Positions 17,317-64,000 of a DNA stretch of 64,000 nt are shown here, one piece after another; within the stretch, counting starts at the first letter, position 1; every line of letters begins with the position of its first letter. A model generated the notes under the pieces. The model was not told the DNA's origin. It saw only the letters and a list, made by a program, of their open reading frames with translations, and did no database searches. A program made the translations under genes and the position numbers. This stretch comes from a virus: positions 46,938 through 110,937 of the IMG/VR virus record IMGVR_UViG_3300007512_000012; one strand, given 5' to 3'.

Positions 17317-18720
17317 TCAGGCGCGCTTCTCGGCCGCTGCCGCCTGCTTGGTCAGCTTGCTGCGGATCTGCGCGGCGACCTTCGGCGACTCCTTGTCGCA
17401 GATGGCCTCGATGGCCTCGGGCCAGTCGCCGTAGAAGTCCACGGCCTCCTCCACCCGCTTGTGCCAGTTGCGGCGGGTGGACCAGCCCTCGACGATCTCG
17501 GCGATCTCCTCGTCCTCGGTCTTCGCCGGGGGCGGGGCCGGTCGCGTGCGGCCCGCGACGGCGGCGTCCGGCAGCAGGGCGGCCAGGTCGTCTCCGGCCG
17601 TCGTGACCTCGACATCGCCCGTCGCCCCGCCCTCGCCGACGTGGTCGATGCCGACGTTGCCCTCGGCCGGGACCTGCGTGGAGCCCTGGCCCCGGACCGC
17701 CTGCGCCTGGTGGGTCTGCGTGTCGTCGGGGACGACCACCGCACCGGCCTCGCGGTTCTGCGGGGTCTTCGCGACCGCCCGACCGACCTGCACCGGCTGA
17801 CGCCGGGCGGCCTTCGTGACGTTCACGGCCTTGACCTCGCCCGCCTCGACGACGCCGTCGCCGACCGTGGCACCGGACGAGAACTTGTACTCCTTGCCCA
17901 CCGGGACGCCCCCGGCGTCGTCGGCGATGACCTGGTACTTGCCGCCCTTGCCCGCCCGGCGACCACCCTGGTCGGCCGTGTCGTGCCGCGTGCCGCCCAT
18001 CTCATCCCGCGTCTTCGCGGGGTCGGCCTCCTCCAGGGCGGCCTGCCTCGCTGCGATGCGGTCGCGGTTGATGCGCTCGGCTCGGGCCACCTCCGCCCGC
18101 TCGGACGGCGACGCGGCCGGGGCGTTGCCCGTGCCCGCCTGGTGGACCGGGGTGGCCTTCACGAACTGCTGCTCCTTCTCGGCGTCCTCCATGAAGATGT
18201 CCTCGACATCCGGGGACACCTCGGCAGCGTGCTCGGCTCCCGACGCGCTCATGTCCACGTCCAGGGCCTCGGTCGGCTCGGCGGCGGCGGCGGTGATGCC
18301 GAGGTCGGCCTTCCGCTGTGCCCGCTGCGCACGCAGCTCGGCCAGGCGGTTGCGGTCGCCCGAAGACGCGGCCTCGCGGATCTGCTTGGCCTCGCCCATC
18401 GTGCCGATGACCGCCTCCTCCTCGGCCGCCTCGCCCATCTCGAAGGTGTCCCCGCGCTCGCGGGCCTCCGGGGTCGCGTGGCTGACCTGCACCCCGGCGG
18501 GCTTCGCCTGGTAGGTGGTGGTCTGGTCTTCCGCGACGACGAACCAGTCGCCCAGGAGGCTCTGGAGCTGCGGGACCGCGTACTCGACGCCCGCGTAGCG
18601 CACGGTCTGGCCGTCGTAGTCGAACTCATCGGCCTCGGCGATGTCCATTTCGTACTTGCCGACGTGGATCTTGTTCGTCGCCCGGTACGTCTTGAACTGG
18701 CCTCGCTTGAACTTGCTCAT
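17317..18720 (-). CDS. Putative virion protein with disordered Ala/Gly-rich middle
   Basis: 467 aa. Residues 1-65 form a compact basic and aromatic domain (S-K-F-K-R-G-Q-F-K-T-Y-R-A-T, then F-D-Y-D-G-Q-T-V-R-Y-A-G). I recall similar N-terminal domains in other large phages, without a function. Residues about 80-400 are low in hydrophobics and rich in Ala, Glu, Gly and Asp, so probably disordered. The last 65 residues are helical (I-V-E-G-W-S-T-R-R-N-W onward). Located next to the capsid genes; a capsid-associated or linker role is inference. Confidence 0.65.
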   Translation of the reverse strand: MSKFKRGQFKTYRATNKIHVGKYEMDIAEADEFDYDGQTVRYAGVEYAVPQLQSLLGDWFVVAEDQTTTYQAKPAGVQVSHATPEARERGDTFEMGEAAEEEAVIGTMGEAKQIREAASSGDRNRLAELRAQRAQRKADLGITAAAAEPTEALDVDMSASGAEHAAEVSPDVEDIFMEDAEKEQQFVKATPVHQAGTGNAPAASPSERAEVARAERINRDRIAARQAALEEADPAKTRDEMGGTRHDTADQGGRRAGKGGKYQVIADDAGGVPVGKEYKFSSGATVGDGVVEAGEVKAVNVTKAARRQPVQVGRAVAKTPQNREAGAVVVPDDTQTHQAQAVRGQGSTQVPAEGNVGIDHVGEGGATGDVEVTTAGDDLAALLPDAAVAGRTRPAPPPAKTEDEEIAEIVEGWSTRRNWHKRVEEAVDFYGDWPEAIEAICDKESPKVAAQIRSKLTKQAAAAEKRA

Positions 18721-18788
18721 CTAGATCGTCCTCCGCCTGGAGTATGGCCCCATGAACGGGGTGGAACCTGTGAACCCTACCCGGCCAC

Positions 18789-19064
18789 TCACAGACCTTC
18801 CTCGCGAGCAGCAGAAACGCTACCCGCCTGGATGTCTGCTTCCAGCGCACCACTGATCTTGTCGCGGATGACGGGCAAGAAGACCTTGCGGACCGGGACC
18901 CTCGCAACGACCTTCGCCTGCCGCTCACTGGCCGAGTAGACCAGGAACTCCAGCAGGCACCGGCCATCCGCCGTGTCGTTGAACCGGAAGGCGTTGGCGA
19001 ACACACCGAAGGCCAGGCGGGGGTCCACAACCACCTCGCAGACGACCCGATCCTGTCTCGGCAT
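18789..19064 (-). CDS. Hypothetical small protein
   Basis: 91 aa, ATG at 19064. Alternating beta and alpha pattern (V-V-C-E-V-V-V-D-P, then F-R-F-N-D-T-A-D-G-R, L-L-E-F-L-V-Y, V-V-A-R-V-P-V-R-K-V-F-L-P-V-I). Possibly a small structural or regulatory protein. It lies 12 bases after the coiled-coil gene. No family recognised. Confidence 0.6.
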   Translation of the reverse strand: MPRQDRVVCEVVVDPRLAFGVFANAFRFNDTADGRCLLEFLVYSASERQAKVVARVPVRKVFLPVIRDKISGALEADIQAGSVSAAREEGL

Positions 19065-19076
19065 GTCGGCTCCCGG

Positions 19077-19715
19077 CTACTGGGCCTCCTTCCACTCCGC
19101 CAGAGCCTCCGCCAGATCATCCGATCCGTCCGGGGGGCTGTCCGCGTCGAGCAGGAAGCCTTCAGCCTCCTGCACTACCCGCAGAAGTCGGTCCATCTTG
19201 CGGCTGGTCTCCTCGATGTGGTCGCCCGTCAGGCTCTCGTCCAGCCGCCGCAGGACATCGACGACATCGCGGGGCGCTCCGTCCGAAGGCATCTCGCGAA
19301 GAACCGCCAGCGTCTCGCGCGCAGCGACCAGGTGGTCCCTCGGGGCCAGCAGGAGCCCCAGCCGCCTGTTGATGCCGTCGAGGACTTTGCTGTGCTCCGC
19401 GATGAGGGCCGTCAGGTGCTCCCTCTGCTTCTGGTGCTCGGCCTCCAGCTCGTCCTTCGTCTTGCGGAACTCCAGCTCCATCTGGCGGGCACGCTCCTCC
19501 CGAGCGTTCGCCTGCTGCCAGAGCTGCTGCTTGATGTCGCCCGCGAGCGATGCCGTGGTGTCGAGGTTGTCGGCGAAATCGCCCAAGCTCGACAGGAGCT
19601 TCCCAAGCGCCCCTGCCCCGTCCTGAACGTCACGCGGCAGGGTGACGTTCCCGCTGTACTGCGCATTCGTCAGGGCTTCACCGAGATCCCGCATCATCGT
19701 GCCGAAGTCGCTCAC
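19077..19715 (-). CDS. Coiled-coil protein of unknown function
   Basis: 212 aa. GTG 19715 chosen because GGAGG lies 8 bases upstream; the longer frame to 19766 has no SD. Residues about 60-125 form a long charged coiled coil (EERARQMELEFRKTKDELEA) and a second helical stretch spans 150-195. The tail is acidic. It could be a scaffold, spacer or tail-assembly factor. It is divergently oriented from the nucleotidase gene, with 118 bases between them. Confidence 0.6.
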   Translation of the reverse strand: MSDFGTMMRDLGEALTNAQYSGNVTLPRDVQDGAGALGKLLSSLGDFADNLDTTASLAGDIKQQLWQQANAREERARQMELEFRKTKDELEAEHQKQREHLTALIAEHSKVLDGINRRLGLLLAPRDHLVAARETLAVLREMPSDGAPRDVVDVLRRLDESLTGDHIEETSRKMDRLLRVVQEAEGFLLDADSPPDGSDDLAEALAEWKEAQ

Positions 19716-19833
19716 GGGTTGCCCCTCCGATGTCTGATTGAACGCGGTCGTTCCGAGCATGGGCATGGGCCATCTACTCCCTGCCCCGCCTCACGGAACC
19801 CCCTGGCCGGGTAGAACAAGGCAGGAGAACACC

Positions 19834-20436
19834 ATGACCAAGCCCCACGAACTCGTCGCCCTCATCGACATGGACGGCACCGTCGCCGACTTCGACGGAG
19901 CCATGCGACGGGACCTCGCCACCCTCACCAGCCCCGGCGAGCAGGTGATCGCCGCCGGACCGGACGACTCCGACGAGCCGCTCTGGCTGAAGGCCCGCAA
20001 GAAGCTCACCAAGACCCAGCCGGGCTGGTGGCGGAACCTGCCCGTGTACGGCATCGGGATGGCGGCCTACACCCACCTGCGCGTCGGGGATGTGCTCGCG
20101 GCACCACTCGACCTTCTCGGTCCACGCCTGCGTGCTGCGGTACGGCCCCTTGGTCAGGACCATCATCGTGAAGCCCGCGTCGCGCAGGTGACCATCACCG
20201 AGGACAAGGGCCTGGTCTACGGCAAGGTGCTGGTAGACGACTGGCCCGCCTACGGCATCCGCTGGTTGGAGTGGCGGCCTCGTGGCCTGCTGGTGGTCCC
20301 GGCCTGGCCCTGGAACACGCTCGACCAGTACCCCGAGCACCTACACCCGAACATCATCCGGCTCACCGGGGACTGGCCCACGGAGCTTCCCCTGCTGCTG
20401 GAGCGCATCGCGGCCATCAAGGAGAGCGCACGCTGA
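19834..20436 (+). CDS. 5'(3')-deoxyribonucleotidase-like HAD protein, disrupted by an internal inversion
   Basis: 200 aa, ATG with AGGAG 6-7 bases upstream. HAD motif I is intact (L-I-D-M-D-G-T-V-A-D-F-D, nucleophile D12, acid D14), and so are T-E-D-K-G-L-V-Y-G (lysine motif) and V-L-V-D-D-W (motif IV). Residues 81-119, where motif II should be, read as Leu/Arg-rich nonsense. The reverse complement of exactly this stretch (20074-20190) translates in the same frame to a proper nucleotidase core containing M-M-V-L-T-K-G-P-Y-R and A-W-T-E-K-V-E-W-C. The deposited orientation should be catalytically dead and the flipped one complete. The family dephosphorylates deoxynucleoside monophosphates. Candidate phase-variable gene or sequencing artefact. 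Confidence 0.8.
   Translation: MTKPHELVALIDMDGTVADFDGAMRRDLATLTSPGEQVIAAGPDDSDEPLWLKARKKLTKTQPGWWRNLPVYGIGMAAYTHLRVGDVLAAPLDLLGPRLRAAVRPLGQDHHREARVAQVTITEDKGLVYGKVLVDDWPAYGIRWLEWRPRGLLVVPAWPWNTLDQYPEHLHPNIIRLTGDWPTELPLLLERIAAIKESAR
20074..20190. repeat. Candidate intragenic invertible segment with 10-bp inverted repeats
   Basis: CACCTGCGCG at 20074-20083 and its exact reverse complement CGCGCAGGTG at 20181-20190 bound a 97-bp centre. The whole unit is 117 bp, exactly 39 codons, and both orientations are open in the nucleotidase frame. Only the flipped orientation encodes the conserved HAD motif II region. No recombinase gene lies beside it. Confidence 0.75.
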
Positions 20437-20439
20437 TCG

Positions 20440-20940
20440 GGGCGTCTTAAACGACGAAACCCACCGGCCTCCCGAAGGGGCTACGGTGGGTCCGCAGATG
20501 ACTGTCACCGGCTGCGGCCTTGTGGGGCCGTTCCCGATGTTGTCCCCGTCCTCCCTTGGGAGGCCGACTTCCGCAACCGCTCTCGCGGGCTGCTTCCGCC
20601 AGACCGAGTCAGGTGAAGGTGATGGTCCCTTCTTCCTCGGCGTGGGTTTCGACCGGAGTTTCCTCCAGCCAGGTATTGGGCTTGAACCCCTCTACCCTGA
20701 CCCCTTGTTCAAGAGGGGTCCCATCGTTGAGGCCAGCGGCTAACTGACCCCCTACTCTGCCGCCTGCTCCCCTTGCCACGGGGTCGGCCTGCGGTAGAGG
20801 CCCCGCCGGGTTTCCCCTTTGGAGCGCGCCAGGATGGCTGTCCTGGCTTCCGGTTCGGGGTGACTGCGGTGCCTAGTCCCGTCTGCCTCGAACCGTGCCG
20901 CTCGGGTCTCCCCGTGCAGCGAGGGAGGTTCTAAACGACC
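20440..20940 (-). ncRNA. Large structured non-coding RNA candidate (about 0.5 kb)
   Basis: No convincing ORF in about 540 bases. Read on the minus strand the segment is dense in stems closed by canonical RNA tetraloops: GGAG-GAAA-CTCC (20655-20666), GGG-GAAA-CCC (20808-20817), CCGC-GAGA-GCGG (20577-20588), CGGG-GAGA-CCCG (20903-20914), and C-TTCG-G in the hairpin 20460-20490. On the plus strand these loops become TTTC, TCTC and CGAA, so minus is favoured. Further stems include GCCAGGA/TCCTGGC and ACCCCT/AGGGGT. Direct repeats TAAACGAC lie at both ends (20448-20455, 20932-20939). It does not match tRNA, tmRNA or RNase P as I know them. Style recalls large ornate phage RNAs such as GOLLD, but identity is not shown. 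Confidence 0.6.
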
Positions 20941-20964
20941 TGGACTCGGGGGTCAAGCGGTTCC

Positions 20965-21267
20965 CGAACTTTTTTCGTCAGCGACGAGTTCGGCGGGTGC
21001 GTGCCCGGAGGATTCGGTCAGCGTGTGCCTCGATGGCCCGGTTGATCCGGTTGTCGCTGAAGAAGGGGATCGGCTCTCCCCGGAGCATCCGGTGGGCCAG
21101 GGTCTTGATCTTCCCGAAGCGCATCATCCCGTCCAATCAGTTGTCGATGATGAGGGCGGCCAGCAGGTAGGTGATCGTGCGCGTCGTCATGCTCGGGTTC
21201 TCCAATCCGTTCTGCCCCTACTACTGGCCTGCTCCGGCGGCTGAGCCCCGAGATCGAAAAAAGTTCG
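20965..21267. repeat. 303-bp segment bounded by 13-bp perfect inverted repeats
   Basis: CGAACTTTTTTCG at 20965-20977 and its reverse complement CGAAAAAAGTTCG at 21255-21267. The left repeat abuts the stop of the broken small ORF and the right one lies inside the loop of the hairpin 21241-21276. No target-site duplication is seen. It could be a second invertible segment, a tiny terminal-repeat element, or paired regulatory sites. Confidence 0.5.
20978..21190 (-). pseudogene. Small ORF interrupted by an in-frame TGA
   Basis: ATG at 21190 (GGAG 9 bases upstream) begins M-T-T-R-T-I-T-Y-L-L-A-A-L-I-I-D-N and meets TGA at 21137-21139. The same frame then continues L-D-G-M-M-R-F-G-K-I-K-T-L-A-H-R-M and on through 52 codons to the stop at 20978, ending in a basic tail (RARTRRTRR). 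The downstream part reads like a real helical basic protein and could restart at ATG 21127 or 21124, or at TTG 21136. The options are a nonsense mutation (for example TGG to TGA), two short genes, or recoding. No family recognised. Confidence 0.45.
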
Positions 21268-21276
21268 AGGGCTCAG
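21241..21276. other. Strong 8-bp hairpin with A/T-rich loop
   Basis: CTGAGCCC (21241-21248) pairs with GGGCTCAG (21269-21276), and inner bases CGA/TCG extend the stem around an A6/T6 loop. On the plus strand it is followed by AAAAA, so it is not a typical terminator on either strand. It may be a protein-binding site or part of the inverted-repeat element. Confidence 0.45.
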
Positions 21277-21462
21277 AAAAAGCCGCTGGTCGGTGGTGAT
21301 GGTGAAGGCAGGAAGCGAGGCCCCGACAGCCCTTCCCCTCCTGCCGCCACGACGAAGGAGGCCGGATGAAGTGACGACCGATGCGACAGAATCCATTCCG
21401 TCTGACGGCCCCCGGTAGTACCCCTGCCGGGGTGTCCGTCGTTGTGGGGAGCCGAAACGACA

Positions 21463-21494
21463 GCACCCCCGGAGGCCGAAGCCGCCGGGGGTGC
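21463..21494 (-). terminator. Terminator hairpin downstream of the major capsid gene
   Basis: 10-bp perfect stem GCACCCCCGG/CCGGGGGTGC, extended on the minus strand by GGC-TTCG-GCC with a UUCG tetraloop, then TGTCGTTTC. It is the second of two tandem hairpins after the capsid gene. Confidence 0.75.
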
Positions 21495-21512
21495 GTCGAG
21501 TGGTGTCCCGAA

Positions 21513-21538
21513 GGAGCGGCCGGGTCACCGACCGCTCC
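21513..21538 (-). terminator. First hairpin after the major capsid gene
   Basis: Stem GGAGCGG/CCGCTCC with a 12-base loop, 15 bases past the capsid stop codon. With the hairpin at 21463-21494 it forms a tandem terminator, as expected for a very highly transcribed gene. Confidence 0.6.
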
Positions 21539-21552
21539 TCACCGGCCCGCTA

Positions 21553-22425
21553 CTAGCGGGTGACGGTCAGGCGGGCGAGGCCGCGCGGGTTGTAGGCCCC
21601 GAGGCCCAGGTTCTCGAAGATCGAGAAGCCGATCATCCGGCGCTTCGGGTCGTCGGCCGACAGGACCGTCAGCTCGGTGCGGACCGGGATGCGGCCGAAC
21701 ATCTCCGGCTCGCAGCACAGGTACACCGTGCCGTTGGGCACGAGGCGGCTGGTGACGACGTTGGCCCCGTAGATGACCCCCTGGAGGCCCGTCTTCAGGA
21801 GCGTCGCCTGCGACTCGATGTCGAGGATGTCGCGGCCGAACTTGCGGATGTCCGCGTAGTCCCGCGCGTTCATGTAGATGCGGGCGACCCGGAGGTCGTG
21901 CCGCTCGATGAGCGCGAAGGCGTCCGCCAGCACCGCGCCCGAGATCGGGGCGATGACGGGGATGTCGGCGTTGAGCTGACCCGGCAGGGAGTCGAAGCCC
22001 GCCGTGGCGACGGCGTCGAGGACGGCGAAGACGCGCTCGTCCTCGGCGGCCTGGATCTGCGCCCGGCCGAGGTCCTGGGACCGCTCGATCAGGTCGAAGC
22101 GGCGCTCCTTGATCTGGGTGAGCGGGATCTCCGGGTTCGACGCGATCTCGAAGAGCGGGAAGATCACCCGGCGCGGCTTGGTGACCGCGAGGATGTTCTG
22201 GCCCTCTTCGCCGACCACGTAGGCGGTGATGTCGGGGTCCTTGTCGTAGATGGGCAGCGCACCGTCGGGGAGCTGCTCGACCAGGAAGGTCTTGCGGCCC
22301 ACGGCGGCGTAGTCCCGCCGCGTGCGGAGGGGCTGCGTCATCGACGCGGCGAGCTTGGCGCGACCCTGCGGGGTCTTGATGTACTCGCCGATGATCTTCT
22401 GCTTGACGGCGTTGGTGGCGTTCAT
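21553..22425 (-). CDS. Major capsid protein (HK97-fold)
   Basis: 290 aa, a compact HK97-type length without a delta domain. The N-terminal 40 residues are a helical, basic arm. V-E-Q-L-P-D-G-A-L-P-I-Y, V-T-K-P-R-R-V-I-F-P-L-F-E-I and the spine-helix region D-L-I-E-R-S-Q-D-L-G-R-A-Q with E-D-E-R-V-F-A-V-L-D-A-V match capsid proteins of large myophage-like groups. The end G-L-G-A-Y-N-P-R-G-L-A-R is typical. It is the last gene of the order portal, protease, scaffold, decoration, capsid and is followed by two terminators. I am confident of the role though not of the subfamily. Start ATG with an AGGAGGACC SD. Confidence 0.82.
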   Translation of the reverse strand: MNATNAVKQKIIGEYIKTPQGRAKLAASMTQPLRTRRDYAAVGRKTFLVEQLPDGALPIYDKDPDITAYVVGEEGQNILAVTKPRRVIFPLFEIASNPEIPLTQIKERRFDLIERSQDLGRAQIQAAEDERVFAVLDAVATAGFDSLPGQLNADIPVIAPISGAVLADAFALIERHDLRVARIYMNARDYADIRKFGRDILDIESQATLLKTGLQGVIYGANVVTSRLVPNGTVYLCCEPEMFGRIPVRTELTVLSADDPKRRMIGFSIFENLGLGAYNPRGLARLTVTR

Positions 22426-22438
22426 GTCCTGGTCCTCC

Positions 22439-23128
22439 TCAGATGCGCTGGTCGTAGACCAGGTCGCCCTGGACGGCGTCGGGGACCATCTTCACGGTCC
22501 CGATGACGGTGGGAAGGGACATCGCGCCTCCGGCAGCGATGACGGGGGCGGCCAGCGCGGCGAAGTTCGCCAGCATGTCCACACCCTCCCACGTCTGCTC
22601 CGTCGAGACGGCGGCGTAGTCGGCGGCGATGATGTTGGTCAGGTAGCCGTTCCGCGAGGCGAAGAGGGCCTGGCCGACGTTGTAGGCGGTGAGCGCGTTG
22701 CCCAGGTTCAAGCCCGTCAGGACGGAGTCCTCGAACAGCGTGTTGCCGAACGTGCCCTGCCCCGAGACGTAGGGACCCTTGCCGGACGCGGTGCCGGGGG
22801 TGTTCTCGAAGGCGTTGCCGTTCGCGCTGTTGATGAAGACGCCGAGGATGCCGACGTTCGCGGTGCCGACCGCCGCCGGTCCGCCGATGAAGTTGGACCC
22901 GCCGCCCGCGTCACCGCGCGAGAAGCACACGGAGCCGGAGAGGACGCCCGTGAGGGTCTGGTCCACCTGGGCCGTGATGGTCGCCACGGCGACGACCTGG
23001 GGGGGGTTGGTCTGGGTGAACGAGTCGTCGGTCAGGACGCCGATGCTGTTCGCGATCCCGAGGTTCAGGATGCGCAGCGCGCTGCTCGACTCCGTCCATC
23101 CACCGCTTGCCTGTCCGAGCAGAGGCAT
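22439..23128 (-). CDS. Probable capsid decoration or head protein
   Basis: 229 aa. Gly/Ala/Thr/Asn-rich, beta-sheet-like, no enzymatic motif, low charge (V-V-A-V-A-T-I-T-A-Q-V-D-Q-T-L onward). Immediately upstream of the major capsid gene, 13 bases apart, so co-transcribed at high level. Many phages place the decoration protein here. It could instead be a minor head or tail-tube protein. First gene after the bipartite motif at 23237-23260. Confidence 0.65.
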   Translation of the reverse strand: MPLLGQASGGWTESSSALRILNLGIANSIGVLTDDSFTQTNPPQVVAVATITAQVDQTLTGVLSGSVCFSRGDAGGGSNFIGGPAAVGTANVGILGVFINSANGNAFENTPGTASGKGPYVSGQGTFGNTLFEDSVLTGLNLGNALTAYNVGQALFASRNGYLTNIIAADYAAVSTEQTWEGVDMLANFAALAAPVIAAGGAMSLPTVIGTVKMVPDAVQGDLVYDQRI

Positions 23129-28109: not shown

Positions 28110-31100
28110 TCAGGCCACCAGGTCTTGCTCGTCCTCCGAAAGAACCGCTTTTTCCATCGCCGTGAACTCATCAGGCGACATCTGCTCGATTCTTTTTCGC
28201 TCGGCGGGGTCCTTCACATTTTCGAGAAAGTCCCGCTTCCGCTCCTCGGGCGACCGCTCCGGTCGCACTGAAGGGTCGTCCAGCAGCGAGAGGTCTGCCC
28301 CACCGGCCACGGCCCGCAGCACTGCAACCGCCGTGTCCTGCGCGTCGGGCTCCACGTCCATGTCGTCGATGGCGTCGGCCGTCGCCTCGGCCTGTGCCCG
28401 GACCACAGCTTCCCGCGACCGCTTCATGCACTCGGCCTGCGTCTTGCCCTCCTCCAGGCACGCCTGGAGGGCCTCATCGACCGCCGAATCCACGGCCTCG
28501 CGGGTCTTGTCCTCCACCTCGTCCGCCGTCTGGTCGAACAGCTCGGGGAGGTTGGCGGGGTCCCGCTTCTTCCTGGTGATGGCCGCCGCGACGCCCTGCA
28601 CGGTGGTCATGTGCATCACGCCCATGTCGCGGATCATGGCCCGCAGGTACTCCTGCACCTCGGGAGCCATGTCCGGGTTGTCGGCGAGCGCCTTGACCAG
28701 CGGCTCCCACGAGGTGCCCTCGGAGATCGCCGCCAGGCCCTCGTCGTCGAGCTTGCCCATCGCGTCGCGGACAGCCGCCCGGCCCTCCGCCGCGTAGACC
28801 TTCGACGAGTCCTTCAGGAACAACACCTCGGCGTTGCCCTGCTTGACCATCTGCTTGAGCACCAGCTTGAGCTTGCTGTTGAGCGGCTCCCGCACCAGGC
28901 GGCCGTCCGGGTGCTTCGCGTCGAAGTCCTCGTCGTTGAGCACCGCCGCCGCGTGGATGCCGTCGATGATCGCGTTCAGCTCGTCGTGCTCGGGGCTGCC
29001 CTTCTCGAAGTCACCGAGCTTCGCCGCCGCGTCCTCGGCCACCTGCCTTCGCTGGTCCGGGCTCACCCGCCGGTAGAGCTTCATCGCCTGCATCGCCCGT
29101 TCGGTCCGGGCGTCATCGTCGAGCTGCTCGGAGGAGAGGGGCTGGCCGCCGACGTTGGTGGGGTCGAGCAGCAGGGCCTCCTGGGCCTTCGCCTGGACCA
29201 CGGCCTCGGCCAGCTCGTCGATGTCGTCCCCGTCCACGCCCTTGAAGGGGTCCTTCGCGATGTCCTTCATCGCCGACACCGTCACGCCGAAGTCGTCGAA
29301 CAGCTCGCGGAGCTGCTTCATCTCCGCCTTGTACGCCGCATGGAACTCGGCCGAGTCGGCCTTCTCCATGAGCAGCAGAGCCGTCTCCTCCGTGATGACC
29401 TTGTCCCCGTAGAGCTTCTCGGCCAGGTCGGTGATCTCGGCCGTGAACTTCTCCTTGTCGGCCTTCGCCTGCTCCTTCTTCTTGGCCTCGTCCTCCTTGG
29501 CCTTCTCGGCCACGGCTTCCTCGGCCTCCTCCGGGGAGTCGGCGTCGCCCTTCGCGTAGGCCTCGGCCTTCGCCTTCGAGTCCTTGTCCTTGCCGAAGTC
29601 GTTGCGCACCTGGCCCTTCGCGTTCATCGCGTTCCAGGTGCCGTCGTCGGACGGCCACACGTCGCCGGGCTTGCGCTTCTGGCTCGGCTCGCCCTCGGCC
29701 ATCAGCCAGCGGAGAGCGACGCGGTTGGCGGCCAGGGTCGCCCGCTTCTTGTAGTTGTTGCTCAGGTCCCGGTCGCCGTCCGCCCCGAAGCCCTCGATGT
29801 CCGGGTCGTCCTCCTTCATCCGGTTCCGGCGGAGATCGCGACGCGGGGGCTTCTTCGTGGGGTTGCGGCGGTTGAGGCGCTCGACCTCCTCCTCTTCCTT
29901 CTCGGCCTTCGACTTCGTGGCCCGCCGGGTCATCAGGGTGTGCCCCTGCTCCCGACCTGTCTCCACGAACCCTCGCTGCTTGAGCATCCGAACCGCGTGC
30001 GGGTTCACCGCATCGAGGCAGAACTGGATGTCGGGGAACGGCTCGACCAGGTCGTCGTACTGGCTGATGGCGATGTCCATCAGCTTCCCTCCGAGCCCCC
30101 TTCGCTGCCAGCCATCCGGGTCCACGACGATGTCGAAGGCGTAGCACTCCTGGTCACCCGAATCCGACGAGTCGAACAAGGCAGCCACGAGCTTGCCCCC
30201 GGCCTCGTACCCCGCCACGAAGTCCATGTGCGACAAGATGTTGATCCCGGCCTTCTGTGCCAGCTTCCACGGGTCGGAACCTCGCGGAGCCCGCCAGACC
30301 AGGCGGGGAGACGCCCCCTCGACGAACCACCTGGCGGCCAGGCGACGGGTGGCCTGCTTGTAGAGCTGCCGCTTGCCGATGAGCTGCCAGGACAGGCCGA
30401 TCTTCCCGTCCTCTGCGTTGCCGAGGTAGCCCGCCCCCTGAAGCTCGGTGACCACGTCGGGCATCACCGGGTAGCCCCGCCAGGTGAACGTGCCGTCGTC
30501 CGCCACCAGGATGTGCTCGGCACCCCCGGCGGCCCGGTCCATGTCGTTGATGAGCGCCCACTCGTAGGCGGTCAGGCTGGAGATCAGCCCCTCGAAGCCC
30601 ACCAGGCTGACCAGCGGGTCCGGGCTGGTGTAGCCCACCTCCTCCGGCCAGGCGTTGTAGATGGAGATGATGGCGACCTTGTCGGCCGCGAGGCGCATCG
30701 GGTGACGAAGACCGTAGACGCCGTGCGCCCGGTTCCGCCGCTTCTCCGACTGCATCGAGCCCTTCGCCATGCTGTACCACTGGCGGCCGGTCCGCCAGAC
30801 GTAGCCGATGAGCCCGCCGCCGAGGTCCTTCTCGGGGTCCTCGTTCACGCTGGTCATCTCGGACTCGCCCCACCCGAAGACCGCGACGATCTCGTCGGCT
30901 CGGCCGAGGATCTGCCGCAGGCCCCACGAGAGCCGCCCCTGCTTGTCGAGCTTCTCCTTGACCGTGCCGTCCCGCATGAAGGTGTCTTCGAGGCCCGGCA
31001 CGAGGTACTGGCTGCGGAGCGTGCTGGCCTCGTGCCCCACCTCCTTGGCCGCCTCATCGAGCGCCTGCTGGAACTCCTTCTTGAGCTTCTGCTCCCGCTC

Positions 31101-34100
31101 CTTCTTGTCGGTCGGGAGCTTGCCGCCCTTGCCCCGGATGGCCTTGAGCCGGGTCTGGACTTCGCGGTTGGCGTGCAGCCCCCGGATGTCCTTCGCGGTG
31201 ATGCCGTGGGGCTTCAGGTAGGCGTTCACGTCGCCTGCCTCGACGCCCTCGAACACGGGGTCGGTGCCGGACTTGCCCTTCAGGGCCTCGCGGAGCCCGC
31301 TGACCAGGCCGGAGTCGCTGGTGGTCTTCGTCTGGCTCACCCCGGACTTGCCGACGTACTTGATGGTCGCCTTGCCGCCGGAGAGGGTGACGTGCTTCGC
31401 CTGCCAGCCGGTGACCCCGAAGTGGCCGTCCTTCGCCGAACCGGGGTTGCCGACCCGCTCGTAGGTGTCGTTCATCAGGCCCACGGCCAGGGCGCACAGC
31501 CGGGTCTTCTCGTCCTTCGACTTGAGGTCCTTGCCGATCTGGCCGCGCAGCTTGTCGAGGTTCTGCCGGAGCTTCTCGACCTTCTTCGCCTTCTCGCGGT
31601 TGCGGTGCTGGACCTGGCCCTCGCTGTACTCGTAGACCGTGACCTGCTCGCCCTTCTGGTTCTTGACCTTCTTCTTCGTGCCCTTGGCCGCCGTCTTCAG
31701 GCCGCCGGGCAGGGTCGGTGCCCGGAGCACGGCGATGACGTTGCCGGAGGAGGGGAAGTCGCGCGCGAGGCTCTTCCACACCCGCCCGGCAGCGGTGCTG
31801 GTGCCGGAGCCGCCGGAGCACTCGTAGGGCATGAACAGGAAGGGGCCGACCTTCTTGAACCACTCGACCATGACGGCCAGGTACATCGCCTTGCCGATGC
31901 CGAGGCCCTGCTTGCTCTCGTCGGTGATGAACGCCTTGTAGACCTGGAGGGCTCGGGTGTTCGTCCGCTCCTCCCCGTCGCTCGCCACCCACCGAGGTCG
32001 GCTGGTGTCCTCGACCTGCGGGTACTTCGCCAGCAGCTTCAGGACATCCCGCCCACACGTCTCCCGCTCGGGGTAGCGCATCACGCTGGCGTGGAGCCCG
32101 CCGATGGGGGCTCGGCCGTAGTAGACGCCTGCGAGGATGGCGTCGCTGTCGGACTTGACCCGGTACTTGACCTTGTTGCCCTCGTGCTCCATCAGCGGGG
32201 TGTTCGGGCCGAACCGCTGCGCGTACCGGGAGGCCACCCGGTCCACGAGCATCCTGTGGATCTCGACCTCGCCCGCTTCACCGCGAGGCAGGGCCGGGCG
32301 GCCCTGGCCGTAGAGCGGCATCGTGCTGTCCACCGGAGACGGCTGCGTCTCGGCCAGCAGGTGCAACGGAACGATCGTCTCCTCCTCCCCGGACGCCTGC
32401 ACGGCGTCGGCGAACTGCCTGTTGAACAGCAGGGCGAGGGAGTCGATGGGGACGCTCTTCGTGATGTCGTCGGCACCGACTTCGAGGACGACGCGGTGCA
32501 TGGTCGCCTGGTTGTAGCGGTCGCACAGCCGCCGGATGGCCGCGTTGGCCTCCTTCGACTGCCCCACAGCGTCCACAGCCTCGTTGAGCGAGTCCTGCAC
32601 CATCTGCGCGAGGGCGTCCTCGGTCAGCTCGCCGCCCACCTTGCTGACGCCGAACCGGGCTTCGAGCTTCTTGTCGAGCAGCTTGGTGGCCTCGGCGACC
32701 ACCTTCTTCGCGAAGATGTAGCCGGGCGGGGGCGGGATCGCGACGTACATGGCGGCGTTGATGCCGCCCTTCATCACCTCGCGGATGAGCAGCCGAGCGA
32801 TGCGGGCACGCTCCTTCGGGTCTGGCACGTCGCCCTTGAGGAGCTTCGCCACCCCGGAGGCCACGTCCTTGCCCCGCTCGACCTTCCGCTTGATGACCTT
32901 CTTCGCGATAGCCGCTGCACCGCTGACGGCCGACCGCAGCTTCCCGCGCTTCGGCTTGTCATCCTCGGCCTCGGGCGCGTCGTCGGTGACGGTGTGGTTC
33001 TTCGGGTCAGCTCCAGGGTGCTCCCGCAGGTACTCCTTGCGGGCCTCGTCCGTGCCGAACTCACGAGCGGACTTCTCCGCCTTGTCGCGGGCGGCCTGGT
33101 CCTTGTCGTAACGGACCTTGAAGAGCTTGACCTCCTTCTTGGCCCCCTGCCCGCCCTGGTCCTTCTTCGGACGCTTGCGAACGATGACCGTGGGGTCGCC
33201 CTTCTCGTTCTCGCCGAAACCCTCGATGCGGCCGGGGCTGTTGAGGTACTTGCCCGTGAACAGCGGGTCGCCGATCTCCAGCTCGAACTTCTTCGCCGTG
33301 CGGGACAGCGGGTACGTCTCGGGCTTCGCCATCCCCCACACCGCCAGGCCCTCGACCGTCCACGAACCCGTGGGCACCTGGCCCTCGTACTTCGAGTCGA
33401 GCCCGTCCAGGTAGGCGAGGGTGATGTGCGGGTTGTAGATGAGGAGCGAGCGGTCCTTCAGGGCGAACCCGGCATCGGTCAGCCGAACCCGGATGCCGTC
33501 TCGAAGCTGGTCCATGTACCCGTCGAACCGCACCGGGCAGTACGCCACTCGGCGTTCCTTCTCCGGGTGCTCGAAGTAGTCGAGGGGCTGGATGGTGGCC
33601 CGCATCGGCCGGTACTGGCTGGCCTCGGCCTGCACGGCTGCCAGGAACTCGGCCTCTCGCCCGCGCACGTCCCCCACGTAGAGCAGCGTGCAGTGGGGCG
33701 GGCTGTCGTCCTCGTCGCCGAGGCTCGGGAACTTCGCGGCCAACTCCTCCGGCAGCGGGAGCATCAGCCCCACCTTCGCCCCGGAGCCCTTCACGGCCGC
33801 CGTGCGAGCTGCCTTCCAGCCCTGGCTCCGCCGCTCGTCGGTCGGCAGGCCGACCTCCTGGCCGGAGTCGAAGCCGATGTAGGCCCACCCGTCGCCCGCC
33901 TCGATGCTCGTCACCTGGTCGCCCTCATCGGGGAACCAGGTCGGGGCCATCGCCGCCGTGCGGCCACCCTGAAGGTCGAGCCTGACGCGCTGCGTCAGCC
34001 GCCGCTTGTCGGTCACGAGGGACGGACTGTCGAGCAGGTGACGGCGAGCCAGGTCGGTGACCTGGCTGATCTGGCCGCCCCGGAGCCCGAACTCCTTGAT

Positions 34101-36581: not shown

Positions 36582-38297
36582 CTACCCGAACCGGCCGCCG
36601 CCCTCTTCCTGTGGCTTCTCGTACTTCAGCCCGAGGTACTCGGCGATCTTCTCGGCGAAGTCGCTGTTCTCCGCCAGGGCGTCGCCGACCCGCGAGTAGA
36701 GGCCACGGAACAGCTCGTTGAACGTCGCGTCCTGCACGGTGCCCACGTCCTGCATGAGCTTCTCGCGCACCGTCACCGGGTCGAGGTTCAGGTGTTCGAG
36801 GATCGTGTCGATGTCCAGCGAGCCCTTCTGGTAGAGGTTCATCAGGGCGTCGAACGTCTCGGTGTTGTCGCGGAACGACAGCCGGGTGAACGACAAGCGG
36901 GGGACGATGACCTGGAGGTTGCCGTCCTCGTCTTCCTCGACGAACCCCATGCGGGCGCACATCGGCCGGAAGAACTGCTCCTCCACCAACCCCTGCAACG
37001 TCTCCCGGTTGAGCATGAACCGCTGGTTGATGACCTCCAGGTTGATGCGGTCACCGGAGTAGCTGGACTCGCCGGAGAGCAGGCTCTCGGTGACCCCGAG
37101 GCCCGCGTACATCTGGCGGTCGGTGAAGTCGAAGACCCACGACCAGTCGGGGAGCCGCTGGTCCGCCCCCATCTCCTCCCACGTCACCTGGAAGTTGGTG
37201 ATGATGGAGAAGTCGGGGTCCTGAAGGGCCAGGTCCACCTGCTCGCGGAGGTCCTCGGTCTGCTCCGCGTTCATGTCCTCGGCGTAGATGAGCCGGTAGG
37301 GCGTCATGTGCCGCGAGGCGATGGACGTGAGGCTCTGGCGGACCTTGTCGCGGAAGACGAGCGTCCGCAGGCAGCGGAGCAGGATGCTCTTGCCACGGGG
37401 CTCATACTGCGACTTCTTGCGGGCCATCAGGTAGTAGAACGACCCCGCCTCCGGGTCCGTGTTCAGCGGGATGTTCTGCCCCTCGGCGATGGCCGCCACC
37501 ACGTCCTCGGGCATCGAGTTCACGACGCGGGCCGCGTGGGGGTCCCCGGAGGCTGCTCGGTTGATGACCGCCTTCGTCTTCGAGTCGGGGATCAGCTCGA
37601 TGAGCTTCTCGTCCGTGAAGGGGAAGCTCTCGACGTGGATCTGCTCGGGGGGCAGGCAGCGGATGGCCGTCCAGCCCTTGTAGTTCTTCTTGAGCCAGGC
37701 CGCCATGCGCTCGTTGGCGTCCTCGTGCCGGACCTTGCGCTCGACGATCTCACCGTCCTTGGTGATCTCGCGGACGATCTCGAACTCGATGTCCTCCGGC
37801 ATGTCCGGCGAGGTGTCCTCGCAGAAGATGTGGGCCTCGCCGAGCAGGTTCCACTCGTGGTTGATCTCCATCAGCCGGTGAAGGAGCCCCTGCCGCTTCG
37901 CCCAGTTCTCGCAGAAGCGAAGCGACGCAGAGGCGAGCTTCTCGTTGCGGGCCTTCGGCTTGCGGAGGCGGACCTTCGAGAGCGGCAGCTCGTCGAGCAG
38001 GTCGATGGCCTGGCCGACGAAGGGGTCGTGGTCGTAGAAGAAGCGGTAGAAGTTGCGCTTCTCGTCGTCGCTCTGCGGCAGTTCGAGGAAGTCGGTGGAC
38101 AGCTCGGGCGAGTAGAAGTTGCCGCCCGCCCCCATCATGGAGCCGCCCGCAGCACCGCCGTAGCCGCCGCCGACACCGCACGCGGCGGCCTTCATCGACG
38201 ACGTGACGATCTTCGTGGGCTTGCCCACCGTCACACCCTTCCGGTCTGCCACCTTGCGGACGACCGTCGTGTCGTCGGGGTCGTTCGACCTAGCCAT
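36582..38297 (-). CDS. Portal protein
   Basis: 571 aa, the usual length. N-terminal 60 residues are Gly-rich and disordered. Then F-Y-R-F-F-Y-D-H-D-P-F-V-G-Q-A-I-D-L-L-D, E-W-N-L-L-G-E-A-H-I-F (clip/wing region), R-C-L-R-T-L-V-F-R-D-K-V-R-Q-S, and the stem-crown region G-V-T-E-S-L-L-S-G-E-S-S-Y-S-G-D. These match portals of large myophage-like genomes. The portal is the dodecameric DNA gate of the procapsid and docks the terminase. TerL lies two small genes upstream. Its ATG overlaps the preceding gene by 8 bases. Confidence 0.85.
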   Translation of the reverse strand: MARSNDPDDTTVVRKVADRKGVTVGKPTKIVTSSMKAAACGVGGGYGGAAGGSMMGAGGNFYSPELSTDFLELPQSDDEKRNFYRFFYDHDPFVGQAIDLLDELPLSKVRLRKPKARNEKLASASLRFCENWAKRQGLLHRLMEINHEWNLLGEAHIFCEDTSPDMPEDIEFEIVREITKDGEIVERKVRHEDANERMAAWLKKNYKGWTAIRCLPPEQIHVESFPFTDEKLIELIPDSKTKAVINRAASGDPHAARVVNSMPEDVVAAIAEGQNIPLNTDPEAGSFYYLMARKKSQYEPRGKSILLRCLRTLVFRDKVRQSLTSIASRHMTPYRLIYAEDMNAEQTEDLREQVDLALQDPDFSIITNFQVTWEEMGADQRLPDWSWVFDFTDRQMYAGLGVTESLLSGESSYSGDRINLEVINQRFMLNRETLQGLVEEQFFRPMCARMGFVEEDEDGNLQVIVPRLSFTRLSFRDNTETFDALMNLYQKGSLDIDTILEHLNLDPVTVREKLMQDVGTVQDATFNELFRGLYSRVGDALAENSDFAEKIAEYLGLKYEKPQEEGGGRFG

Positions 38298-38838
38298 CGC
38301 TCACCTCGCGTGCGAGCCGCAAGAAGATGGTCTGGACGTAGGCGTCGTTGTCCGCCTCACCCTGCTGGCGAGCCAGCTCGACCGCTCGCCGCCACAGTTC
38401 ACCTTCAGCCGACTGCTCTGGAGCTTCCGGCTCCACCTTCTGCTGCACAGGCTCCTCGTCTTCCAGGTTGACGGTGCGGCCCTCCAGAAAGCCGAGGACG
38501 GCCGCCAGCCGCTCCTGGTACTCCCGCCCCCGCCGCCTGGTCCGGGTGACGCCACCCGAACGCTCTCGGCCTTCGAGCCAGGAGCAGAGTGCGCGAGCCT
38601 CCTGCCTGATGTCCACGTCGCTCGCGTAGCCGTCCAGGTGTCCGATGGAGCGGAGGAGCCTCTCGGCTCGGGCCAGGCGGTCCTGCTTCTCCCTGAACAG
38701 CTCCGCGTCGGGGTTCCGCCGCCTGGCGGCCCTCCCGCACACGTCCAGCGCCGCCCGAACCGAGCCGACAGCCCGCTTCAGGTGCGTGTTCAGGTCCCGG
38801 TCGGCAGCCGTCCGGGCAGTGGCTCGCAGGCCGGGCAT
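38290..38838 (-). CDS. Hypothetical helical protein before the portal gene
   Basis: 182 aa, basic N-terminal half and acidic linker (NLEDEEPVQQKVEPEAPEQ). Long helices (residues 15-75 and 95-125) suggest a coiled-coil packaging accessory. No family recognised. Tightly packed between the 84-aa gene and the portal gene, so part of the DNA-packaging unit. Confidence 0.65.
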   Translation of the reverse strand: MPGLRATARTAADRDLNTHLKRAVGSVRAALDVCGRAARRRNPDAELFREKQDRLARAERLLRSIGHLDGYASDVDIRQEARALCSWLEGRERSGGVTRTRRRGREYQERLAAVLGFLEGRTVNLEDEEPVQQKVEPEAPEQSAEGELWRRAVELARQQGEADNDAYVQTIFLRLAREVSDG

Positions 38839-39096: not shown

Positions 39097-41151
39097 TCAC
39101 CTCCCTCCCCGGCCGCGTGAGCGACCCCGGATCAGGGACCGCTGGCGGTCGGGGCTCGAACCACCGAGCCGAGAGCGGGCCATCGCCTTGCGCCGGGCCT
39201 TCGCCAGCTCGGTCGGCGACGCCTGGCCCTTGTGGCGGCCCTTCTTGCGCGAGGTGCCCGCGATGTACTTCCGCTTGCCCATGTGCTGGGTGGCCTCCCA
39301 CACCATGCGGACCAGGGCGTCGGAGTAGTCGTCGTACTTGTCGGGCTGGTTGGGGGCCTCGACCGTCACGATGTACTTGCTGTGCGTCTCCGCCTGAAGC
39401 TCCAGCAGCTCCTCGATGTAGTCGGCGTGGGCGTTCGGGTTCTCCGGGTTGGGCTGGTCGAACAGCACCAGCTTTTGCTCGAACATCAGGGTCTTGAAGT
39501 TGGCGAAGATCTGGCTGGTGAGCTGCTTCGTGAAGAAGACCGACTCGCACTGCGTCAGGCCGCGCTTGTGCAAGGCCGTCTCGAAGGGGATGCCCGCCCA
39601 CTGGTCGAACATGCCCTTCTCGATGTAGAAGCGGCGGCTCAGGGCGTACAGCCAGGCGGTGATGTCGTCGAAGGACAGCCGCTCCAGGTCTTCGTAGTCG
39701 CCCTCACCTGCCCGGATGCGCTCGATGTAGTCGAGGACGATCCGGTGCTCCTCGTCGATGTGGCCGATGGCGACCGCGCAGTAGTCGCCGTCCACCAGGC
39801 CCGCCGAGATGTCGATGCCCATGAAGTGCGGGGCACGCAGCGGGGCCTTCTGCGCGGGCCGGAGCATCGGGTCCACGCAACGCAGCAGCGGCCCCGGCTT
39901 CAGCCAGCCCTTCGTCCGGTCCGTGAACTCGGCCCCGAACTCCGTGAAGAAGCTGTCCGGGTCGGTGGCGTACTCCTCCGCGAGGAACGTCGCCTCGACC
40001 GTGGGGTTCACCTCCCACGTCGGGGCCTGGATGCAGAGCATGTTCCGCGACTCCAGGCCGCCGGAGTAGCCCTGCCTGAACTTGCGGAAGAAGAAGCCCT
40101 GCTTCCCGAGGGGGGACGAGATCGAGAGGATGCGCCCCTCGACCTTGCCGATGGCCCGCCGCCGGTTGCGGGGGTCCTTCGGCGAGAAGGCCGCCAGCGA
40201 CGGCTTGACGGCCCGGTAGATCGTGAGCGCGTCGCTCTGGCCCACGTCGTTGAAGTGAGCCAGCTCGTCGAGGATGATGACGATGTTGCCTGCACCGCGC
40301 AGGCCCTTCGCCACGCACGACTTGAAGCTGACCTTGATGGTCGCCTTGGCCGTGGGGTCGTCCACGTACCGGCCGAACCGGCTGATGTCCTCCGGCGACT
40401 GGAACTTCGCGTAGGACATCGTGTTGTTGGCGGTGTAGGGCTTGTAGAAGGCGCAGTTCGAGAAGTGGCCGCTGGCCTCGTTGTAGAGCAGACCCGCCTG
40501 GTCCTTGTCCGTCGCCACGCTGATGAGCTGGATGACGTTGGTCTTCGGGATGCCGTAGTACCGCTGCGGGTTGTCCTTGAGGATGAGCTTGTAGACCTCG
40601 TAGGCCATCACGCAGGCGCAGATGAAGGTCTTGCCGGAACGACGGCCGATGGAGAGCACCAGCTCGCGGCGCTCCCGGCCAGGCACCACCTCCTTGATGT
40701 TGCTGCGGCCCTCGGCGTACAGGAACCGGAGGTACTCGGCCTCCGTCATGTAGCGGGGGTTCTCCCGCCGCCAGTCGGTGATCTTGACCCGGAACTTGTA
40801 GAAGCCGGTCTCGTCCTCCATCGCGTCCGGGTAGTCGAGCGGCTCCTCCGGCTCGACTTCATCGGGCAGGAGATCGATCAGCTCGCCGGGCTCGTCCTCA
40901 TCCTCGTCGTCCGGCAGGAACGCGATCTCGTCGTAGTTCGGGTGGTCGGACGGGACCTTCTTCGTGAGGTCCAGGCCCCACGGGTTGTCGTCGAGGGGGA
41001 TGCCGTAGTGGGCCTTCAGGATGACCCGCTGCACGGGATACAAGGGGATGTTGAGTCCCCAGGACGACTCCACGAACTCGATGATGTTCGCTGGCTGCTG
41101 CCCTGTTCGCTCTTGCTTTCCCGCTGCGAGGGCGATGTCCGCCAAGCTCAT
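39097..41151 (-). CDS. terL: Terminase large subunit
   Basis: 684 aa. ATPase domain: Walker A G-R-R-S-G-K-T-F (169-176), Walker B I-V-I-I-L-D-E (290-296), coupling motif S-I-S-S-P-L-G (343-349). The nuclease domain starts at M-G-I-D-I-S (D447 as first acidic residue of the RNase-H-like fold), with further acidic residues in D-Y-S-D-A-L-V-R near 620. An unusually acidic insertion at 80-115 and a very basic Arg-rich tail are present. The enzyme cuts and pumps concatemeric DNA into the procapsid through the portal. The candidate small subunit is encoded directly upstream. Confidence 0.92.
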   Translation of the reverse strand: MSLADIALAAGKQERTGQQPANIIEFVESSWGLNIPLYPVQRVILKAHYGIPLDDNPWGLDLTKKVPSDHPNYDEIAFLPDDEDEDEPGELIDLLPDEVEPEEPLDYPDAMEDETGFYKFRVKITDWRRENPRYMTEAEYLRFLYAEGRSNIKEVVPGRERRELVLSIGRRSGKTFICACVMAYEVYKLILKDNPQRYYGIPKTNVIQLISVATDKDQAGLLYNEASGHFSNCAFYKPYTANNTMSYAKFQSPEDISRFGRYVDDPTAKATIKVSFKSCVAKGLRGAGNIVIILDELAHFNDVGQSDALTIYRAVKPSLAAFSPKDPRNRRRAIGKVEGRILSISSPLGKQGFFFRKFRQGYSGGLESRNMLCIQAPTWEVNPTVEATFLAEEYATDPDSFFTEFGAEFTDRTKGWLKPGPLLRCVDPMLRPAQKAPLRAPHFMGIDISAGLVDGDYCAVAIGHIDEEHRIVLDYIERIRAGEGDYEDLERLSFDDITAWLYALSRRFYIEKGMFDQWAGIPFETALHKRGLTQCESVFFTKQLTSQIFANFKTLMFEQKLVLFDQPNPENPNAHADYIEELLELQAETHSKYIVTVEAPNQPDKYDDYSDALVRMVWEATQHMGKRKYIAGTSRKKGRHKGQASPTELAKARRKAMARSRLGGSSPDRQRSLIRGRSRGRGGR

Positions 41152-41164
41152 GGCGTGCCCCCTC

Positions 41165-41845
41165 CTAGACGGATCGCTTCATCCGGGTCTTCGCTTCGTT
41201 CTTCCAGTCCTCATCCACCATCGAGGAGAACTTCGCGAAGACCGTCTCCACCTGCTCAGGGCGCAGACGAGCGGCGTTCATGGACTCCCTGAAGGTGTCC
41301 ATGATCATCTTGAACAGGACCGCGAAGCCGGGCGACTCCAGGTCGATCGTGCGGCTGGTGAGCTGGTCCTTGCGCTTGAGCCACGTCTCGGCCGTGGCCC
41401 GGAGGGCCTGGACTCGCTTCGACGAGAGCCCCGAGGTGTCCTTGCCCTCGCGGGCAGCTTCCTCGCGCTCGAACTTCAGGCTGGCCTGCTCCTCGCCGAG
41501 ACCGACGATGATGGCCTGGAGCAGGTCGGTGGACTCGGGGTCGGCCCGCATCTGCGCGAGGATGTCGTCGGCGTCCATCGCCGACTGCTTGCGCTGAAGG
41601 ATGGCGGCGACGGTCGCGTTGGCGGGGCCGACGTTGGTGGCCGAGGGCTTGCCCGGCTTCCCCTTCATCACGATGGGGTCGCCGTTCTTCTTCGTCTGGA
41701 TCTGGTCGGTGTCGGCCAGGTCGGCGATGGCCTTGTACTTCGTCTCGCCCTTCGCCGTGAGGACGCGGACGCGAGTGGCGCTCGGCGGGATCTTCGCCAG
41801 AAGGTCCGCCCGCCGCTGCTTGTCGGTCTTGCTCTTGCGCGGCAT
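41165..41845 (-). CDS. Candidate terminase small subunit
   Basis: 226 aa. Basic N-terminus (P-R-K-S-K-T-D-K-Q-R-R), a small strand pair, and a helical C-terminal two-thirds (L-L-Q-A-I-I-V-G-L-G-E-E-Q, then A-T-A-E-T-W-L-K-R-K). It ends 14 bases before TerL, the normal place of TerS. No clear helix-turn-helix, so the assignment is by synteny and general character. It could be an unrelated packaging factor. Confidence 0.5.
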   Translation of the reverse strand: MPRKSKTDKQRRADLLAKIPPSATRVRVLTAKGETKYKAIADLADTDQIQTKKNGDPIVMKGKPGKPSATNVGPANATVAAILQRKQSAMDADDILAQMRADPESTDLLQAIIVGLGEEQASLKFEREEAAREGKDTSGLSSKRVQALRATAETWLKRKDQLTSRTIDLESPGFAVLFKMIMDTFRESMNAARLRPEQVETVFAKFSSMVDEDWKNEAKTRMKRSV

Positions 41846-58788: not shown

Positions 58789-59139
58789 TCAGTGCAGGAC
58801 GGGCTCGTCCTCGTCCTTCTTGCCGAAGATGCGGTCCCAGTTGGCCGCGAACTGCTCGTGCGACACCGACATCGGCTTCCGGCCGCCGCTGCCCTGGGGG
58901 GCCGGAGCCTCGTACAACGTCTCGCAGTCGAACGCGGGGCTGTCTTCGCGGGGCTTCATGTGGATGAGGTCGGCACCGGGCGGGAGAGGCACCCCGTCCT
59001 TCGCGGGCATCAGGACGCCGAGGGACGCCTCCTTCGGACCGGAGTCGTCGCCGCGAATGCGCAGCAGGTGGGGCCGTCCCTGGTCGTCGGGGGCGAGTGG
59101 GATGGCGATCTCGCGAGTTGTCTTGCTGTCATCGCTCAT
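58789..59139 (-). CDS. Hypothetical acidic protein
   Basis: 116 aa. Pro/Asp-rich, with a short beta core (H-L-L-R-I-R-G-D-D, A-S-L-G-V-L-M-P) and a C-terminal helix (F-A-A-N-W-D-R-I-F-G-K) similar in style to partner-binding tails. No family recognised. Confidence 0.6.
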   Translation of the reverse strand: MSDDSKTTREIAIPLAPDDQGRPHLLRIRGDDSGPKEASLGVLMPAKDGVPLPPGADLIHMKPREDSPAFDCETLYEAPAPQGSGGRKPMSVSHEQFAANWDRIFGKKDEDEPVLH

Positions 59140-63999: not shown

Positions 64000-64000
64000 T

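Follow-up and report, generated by a model that had tools for sequence, protein, structure and literature searches.

The phage DNA window analysed here (64,000 nucleotides, positions 46,938 to 110,937 of IMG/VR record IMGVR_UViG_3300007512_000012) carries a gene for an NT5C-type nucleotidase in which an internal segment of 117 bp lies inverted between two perfect 10-bp inverted repeats. The same arrangement is found in two contigs of the phage, and the protein as encoded has lost the signature of its family. The explanation that we favour, and hold to be probable, is a recent repeat-mediated microinversion that probably arose by template switching and put a dispensable cargo gene out of function. 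This is most likely a known kind of mutation, caught here in a striking form.

Organization of the Nucleotidase Gene

The features of the gene are listed in Table 1. The start was placed at an internal ATG (19834), with an AGGAG sequence recognised by eye at positions 19823-19827. No promoter or terminator was found in a scan of the region 19600-20700. The inverted-repeat arms have an outer span of 117 bp and reach 16 nt (88% identity) when two mismatches are allowed. Read in the present frame, the sequence 20074-20190 makes no sense; motif I, the lysine motif and the DD motif flank it in the right order. Its reverse complement, HLRDAGFTMMVLTKGPYRSTQAWTEKVEWCREHIPDAQV, is stop-free. Because 117 bp correspond to 39 codons, reading frame and length are kept in the inverted state, and the spacing of the segment to both gene flanks is that found in the homologue L006. 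The breakpoints of the inversion fall within the perfect arms and the length is exactly conserved.

Table 1. Coordinates of the nucleotidase gene and of its inverted internal segment in the window.
Feature	Position	Strand	Basis or content
Nucleotidase gene, NT5C type	19834..20436	+	ORF open from end to end; homologues; inverted internal segment
Motif I, DMDGT, intact	19867..19881	+	Sequence and homologue alignment
Left inverted-repeat arm, CACCTGCGCG	20074..20083	+	Sequence, repeat search
Inverted 117-bp segment	20074..20190	-	Minus strand encodes the nucleotidase core: motif II (VLTKGP) and WTEKVEWCREH
Right inverted-repeat arm, CGCGCAGGTG	20181..20190	+	Sequence, repeat search
Lysine codon of TITEDK (motif III), intact	20206..20208	+	Sequence, alignments
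DD codons (motif IV; VDD), intact	20236..20241	+	Sequence, alignments

The original prediction, made from the DNA letters without database searches, had described a nucleotidase gene with intact motif I, lysine motif and motif IV, interrupted exactly at 20074-20190 by a segment whose flipped translation provides a fitting in-frame core. This description is borne out in all its parts. The homologues of the gene belong to the NT5C-type 5'(3')-deoxyribonucleotidases, the sequences DMDGT, TITEDK and VDD stand at aligned places, the boundaries and their perfect 10-bp repeats are exact to the base, and the flipped reading finds the homologues that the present reading does not (see below). It had also been pointed out that both orientations stay open. 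The observation is correct, yet of little distinctive value: an open in-register antisense frame exists in 96% of 2,570 windows of 39 codons, and openness in both directions is thus the default at this GC content.

The Conserved Orientation of the Segment

Homologues of the nucleotidase were drawn from viral contigs and genome contigs, and 31 of them were compared, leaving out the window's own twin (L045). Among the entries collected, L026, L033, L037 and L044 duplicate the genes L006, L004, L003 and L005, respectively; L042 and L043 are almost identical. The flipped 39-residue peptide matches 30 of the 31 homologues at E ≤ 3e-7 (best match 68% identity over 38 residues, E 3.5e-18; weakest matching E 2.8e-7); the one missed, L046, shares 25% identity with the query. 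With the 39 residues of the present reading, none of the 31 was matched at E ≤ 0.01. When a smaller search of five proteins was carried out with the present peptide it retrieved, besides itself, L005 with a weak match (E 0.005) and two others above E 1. All ten invariant A1 columns that fall in the segment are kept by the flipped peptide; the present reading, placed in the same register, retains a single one, occupied by an alanine.

The opposite orientation is also seen in DNA. The genome of the nearest homologue (G005) aligns with the gene flanks on the plus strand (82.4% over 102 bp and 81.4% over 70 bp) and with the segment on the minus strand (84.8% over 79 bp). The core is uninverted in this genome, which does not carry the same arms. 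A close relative with the same arms in opposite orientation was not found among the homologues, and the immediate ancestor is unseen. Since 30 of the 31 homologues and the DNA match to G005 carry the opposite orientation, the present inverted state is, judged from these comparisons, the derived one and the flipped form the conserved (ancestral) one, as had been anticipated. Residues 81-119 of the present protein are matched by none of the 31 homologues at E ≤ 0.01, and the present orientation is seen in none of them.

Codon Composition and Age of the Inversion

The nucleotide composition of the segment bears the mark of a coding sequence read from the wrong strand. The GC contents at the first, second and third codon positions are 1.00/0.46/0.62 for the segment as it stands and 0.62/0.46/1.00 once flipped, compared to 0.66/0.46/0.94 in the gene flanks; G or C occupies 39 of the 39 third positions of the flipped reading. 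With a codon score trained on ORFs whose GC3 is above GC1, only 0.19% (5) of the 2,570 windows of 39 codons in likely genes, a set that contains windows of the nucleotidase gene itself, score as badly as the present segment. An earlier codon score that favoured the present orientation was discarded; its training set, composed of the longest ORFs, held many antisense ORFs.

The flipped core is not more decayed than its flanks, the mean identity to 30 homologues (L046 left out) being 0.502 for the core and 0.444 for the flanks. The excess of 0.058 lies within the range found for the homologues themselves (-0.032 to 0.146). Identities of the present core, drawn from alignments with free end gaps that covered few residues, were not used in this comparison. 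By this measure the inversion event is recent, or else the segment frequently takes the other orientation.

Predicted Effect on the Enzyme

The homologue L006 matches the Pfam family PF06941 (NT5C) with 42.8 bits (cut-off 24.8 bits), as well as PHROG 420 (function unknown) and PHROG 2643 (5'-3' deoxyribonucleotidase). The window protein as encoded has no Pfam or PHROG match, and the PF06941 family model failed on it. Searched with the PF06941 profile, the complete 110.9-kb record (G000) and the second contig of the phage (G001, see below) yielded no copy, whereas G002 and G005 were positive. PADLOC gave no match for either L006 or the window protein.

Alignment to the solved cytosolic 5'(3')-deoxyribonucleotidase 4l57 pairs the threonine of LTKGP in the flipped translation with that of CTSPL, in agreement with the fit to this enzyme family that had been proposed. 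We take the threonine of CTSPL/VLTKGP to be that of motif II, in the numbering of motifs that we assume throughout. It can be read on the minus strand only, and the encoded protein lacks it in the stretch from motif I to motif III. The gene thus resembles those of the NT5C 5'(3')-deoxyribonucleotidases (PF06941; PDB 4l57, 2i7d; PHROG 2643) by motifs I, III and IV, which are found on its plus strand, but it differs from them by a motif II that lies on the minus strand, leaving the encoded protein without it. With the motif II codon on the wrong strand, one of ten invariant columns retained and the family match lost, the protein as encoded is very probably devoid of nucleotidase activity.

The Inversion in a Second Contig

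A scan of IMG/VR with an internal 27-mer, which possibly skips the record of the window itself and those very close to it, identified only G001 (IMGVR_UViG_3300008954_000049; 64,702 b). This contig spans the whole window and carries the segment in the same orientation, so that the two contigs of the phage that were found are both in one orientation. They differ at four places: two substitutions, one cluster of changes at 34064-34076 and one 12-bp tandem duplication.

These differences bear on the rival explanation of an assembly or library artefact, according to which a fold-back chimera was formed at the short inverted repeats in the contig and the gene is really intact in the phage. The original prediction held an assembly error to be its main alternative. 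We keep it as a rival and consider it unlikely. The arms are short and GC-rich, as such an event would have it, and both contigs stop at one base, for which reason they could share data. Nevertheless, two contigs with real differences agree in the inversion, which weakens this explanation, and two matched chimeric junctions would be required to produce it. With k above 10, a de Bruijn assembler can build such a contig only from reads that cross both junctions.

Three further observations were made when comparing the contigs. Both contigs, that of the window's record and G001, terminate at one and the same base (window position 64000); either the genome truly ends there, or the two assemblies broke at the same point. 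The 12-bp tandem duplication of G001, absent from the window, is located at 58806. In the cluster 34064-34076 the minus strand reads GGC CAG ATC AGC in the window and CAG CAG ATC GCA in G001; one half of the change lengthens a palindrome arm from 6 to 9 bp (perfect) in the window's record, as quasipalindrome correction would. With a single relative found to polarise the change, it is no more than a candidate for a second template-switch event.

Inverted Repeats and Mechanism of Inversion

The 110,937-b record contains 68 inverted-repeat pairs with arms of at least 10 bp and a span of 60-300; 20 simulated sequences held 58 on average (44-73). Such pairs are therefore present at about chance frequency. 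Conversely, the probability that a random inversion with a span of 60-300 falls on one of the 68 pairs is ~2.5e-6 (68 of 110,937 x 241), and repeats and inversion are thus very probably causally linked. Inside likely genes there are 471 in-frame pairs with arms of at least 8 bp, among which 38 have arms of at least 10 bp; 21 of these 38 are open when flipped and 8 gain codon score. The nucleotidase pair shows the largest gain in codon score among the pairs open after flipping; the other high-scoring pairs are mostly not open once flipped. A second candidate inversion with 8-bp arms, at positions 28283-28369 of the 110.9-kb record, was rejected, since the reading frame there is composed like an antisense one. 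Folded as a single strand, the region of the nucleotidase inversion does no better than shuffled sequences (z -0.70), which argues against a strong hairpin driving the inversion.

The following course of events would account for these data. The phage, which has T4-like replication and recombination genes, would have carried an accessory NT5C-type deoxyribonucleotidase gene that contained, by chance, two short inverted repeats, and the 97-bp spacer between them would have been inverted recently. The likeliest route is polymerase template switching, in which synthesis would move to the complementary strand at one arm and return at the other. An identical scar would be left if the arms had instead undergone strand annealing or been resolved as a cruciform. 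Template switching would account for an inversion that is exact in length with breakpoints in the arms, and it requires no recombinase. Motif II would have been taken out of the protein in this way, leaving a full-length product that is very probably inactive. The loss may have been tolerated because the gene occupies a variable cargo spot and has no match in a collinear relative (see Genome Setting), and the inverted form may have become fixed in the population. Reversal by the same chemistry would be possible at a low rate; nothing points to a programmed switch.

There are precedents for events of this kind. In PMC8604942 the first proposal of template switching is traced to phages (Ripley 1982), and T4 rII is named; spacer inversions in yeast coding genes were found there only with arms longer than 9 bp. 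The yeast template-switch cases (Abraham and Hazkani-Covo 2021, PMC8604942) share with the nucleotidase gene perfect arms of at least 10 bp, an inverted spacer, a location inside a protein-coding gene and a conserved length, and some of them are reversible. They differ by their extent: substitutions of 2-5 bp that replace at most two residues in yeast, compared to a 97-bp spacer and the removal of a catalytic motif in the phage. Microinversions at palindromes of chloroplast genomes are, as described in PMC3123225, likewise small and have palindromic flanks able to form stem-loops, but the present one is in a phage coding gene and in one lineage. The bird microinversions that this paper studied showed no link to stem-loops.

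Search for a Recombinase and the Possibility of a Switch

The original prediction interpreted the segment as an intragenic invertible switch that turns the enzyme on or off. In such an inverton a host recombinase, or a phage one that escaped recognition, would flip the segment reversibly. The clean inversion between inverted repeats, in frame both ways, and the flipped reading without decay are what this mechanism would produce, and arms of 10 bp are among the shortest in the 10-40 nt range that PMC11892184 gives for the inverted repeats flanking invertons. The switch finds no support in the other data, and we regard it as quite improbable. Profiles of serine recombinase, tyrosine recombinase, large serine recombinase and IS110-type transposase (PF00239, PF00589, PF07508 and PF02371) found nothing in the 110.9-kb record (possibly incomplete), in G001 or in G005, their controls being positive in 10, 14, 3 and 4 of 14 genomes. 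The recombinase that was to be looked for elsewhere in the genome was therefore not found with these four profiles, and neither integrase nor invertase was named when 50 of the 74 likely ORFs were scanned against PHROG. Furthermore, the repeat is of a kind present at chance frequency, its open antisense frame is the default, both contigs have a single orientation, none of the 31 homologues has the present one, and the 10-bp arm sequence occurs at only two other places in the 110.9 kb, one on each strand. That recurrent template switching, or a host recombinase, operates a reversible switch, the phage population having in part an active and in part an inactive nucleotidase, has a similarly low probability in our estimate.

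Intragenic invertons (Chanin et al. 2024, as cited in PMC11868660 and PMC11892184) likewise consist of an inversion within a gene and short inverted repeats, but there is here no evidence of coexisting orientations and no recombinase was found. Reviews and bacterial studies made up most of what literature searches on intragenic invertons retrieved, and a single review came up for invertons in connection with phage genomes. A last explanation, that selection maintains the present orientation as a new and functional protein core, would agree with the open frame and the intact flanks and is highly improbable in view of 39 residues without homologue at E ≤ 0.01 among 31, a codon use like that of a non-coding strand and a missing catalytic threonine.

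The preferred reading, a repeat-mediated microinversion, would if real provide a clean natural case of a phage gene turned off in one step by a microinversion between 10-bp repeats that are there by chance, the inverted sequence being still entirely readable on the opposite strand. Frames mostly stay open after such inversions in a GC-rich genome, so that gene callers would list the product as an intact protein without a family match. Screening genes for in-frame homology on the reverse strand could reveal more such cases. If both orientations were present in the population, the segment would represent an intragenic inverton in a phage metabolic gene.

Genome Setting

PHROG matches in the window include the major head protein (21556-22491), the portal (36585-38300) and the large terminase (39100-41178), and also a clamp loader, a clamp, an exonuclease/SbcC-like protein and a UvsX-like recombinase. 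Thymidylate synthase and endonuclease VII are encoded outside the window. The genome G006 (IMGVR_UViG_3300035698_003705) is collinear with the window from ~6.2 to 63.9 kb (6208-63943, about 58 kb; L062-L065), with a protein identity of roughly 25-88% per piece and a GC content of 45% compared to 68% in the window. At E ≤ 1e-8 all 294 tblastx pieces share a single relative orientation, and no piece begins within 18700-21555. The search was repeated at E ≤ 10, a threshold meant to catch short flipped pieces, using as control the nucleotidase against G005, in which the inversion is visible at the same settings. Six of 313 pieces were then in the other orientation, none of them within 600 b of its collinear place, and no other inversion was seen along the collinear comparison. 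The tblastx pieces of G005 (at least 2,042, in both directions and mostly composition-driven) were kept out of the orientation count, and a tblastn search with composition-filtered G006 ORFs was set aside, the filter being unsuited to 45% GC.

G006 gave no match to the nucleotidase (A1) in a search run without positive control. Other plus-strand ORFs are found at the place of the gene, one of them with a DPPY motif like that of DNA methyltransferases (identified by eye). Since G006 is collinear, has no nucleotidase match and carries other plus-strand ORFs there, the nucleotidase gene is, on the basis of this alignment, a plus-strand cargo gene in a variable spot (18735-21556) upstream of the major head gene, within a minus-strand structural region.

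Elsewhere in the window, the minus-strand segment 28113-36536, which adjoins the portal gene, is a single open frame of about 2,800 amino acids. Judged by eye from motifs, its parts are presumably tRNA nucleotidyltransferase-like with an intein-like insert, 2H-phosphoesterase-like, acetyltransferase-like and topoisomerase IB-like.
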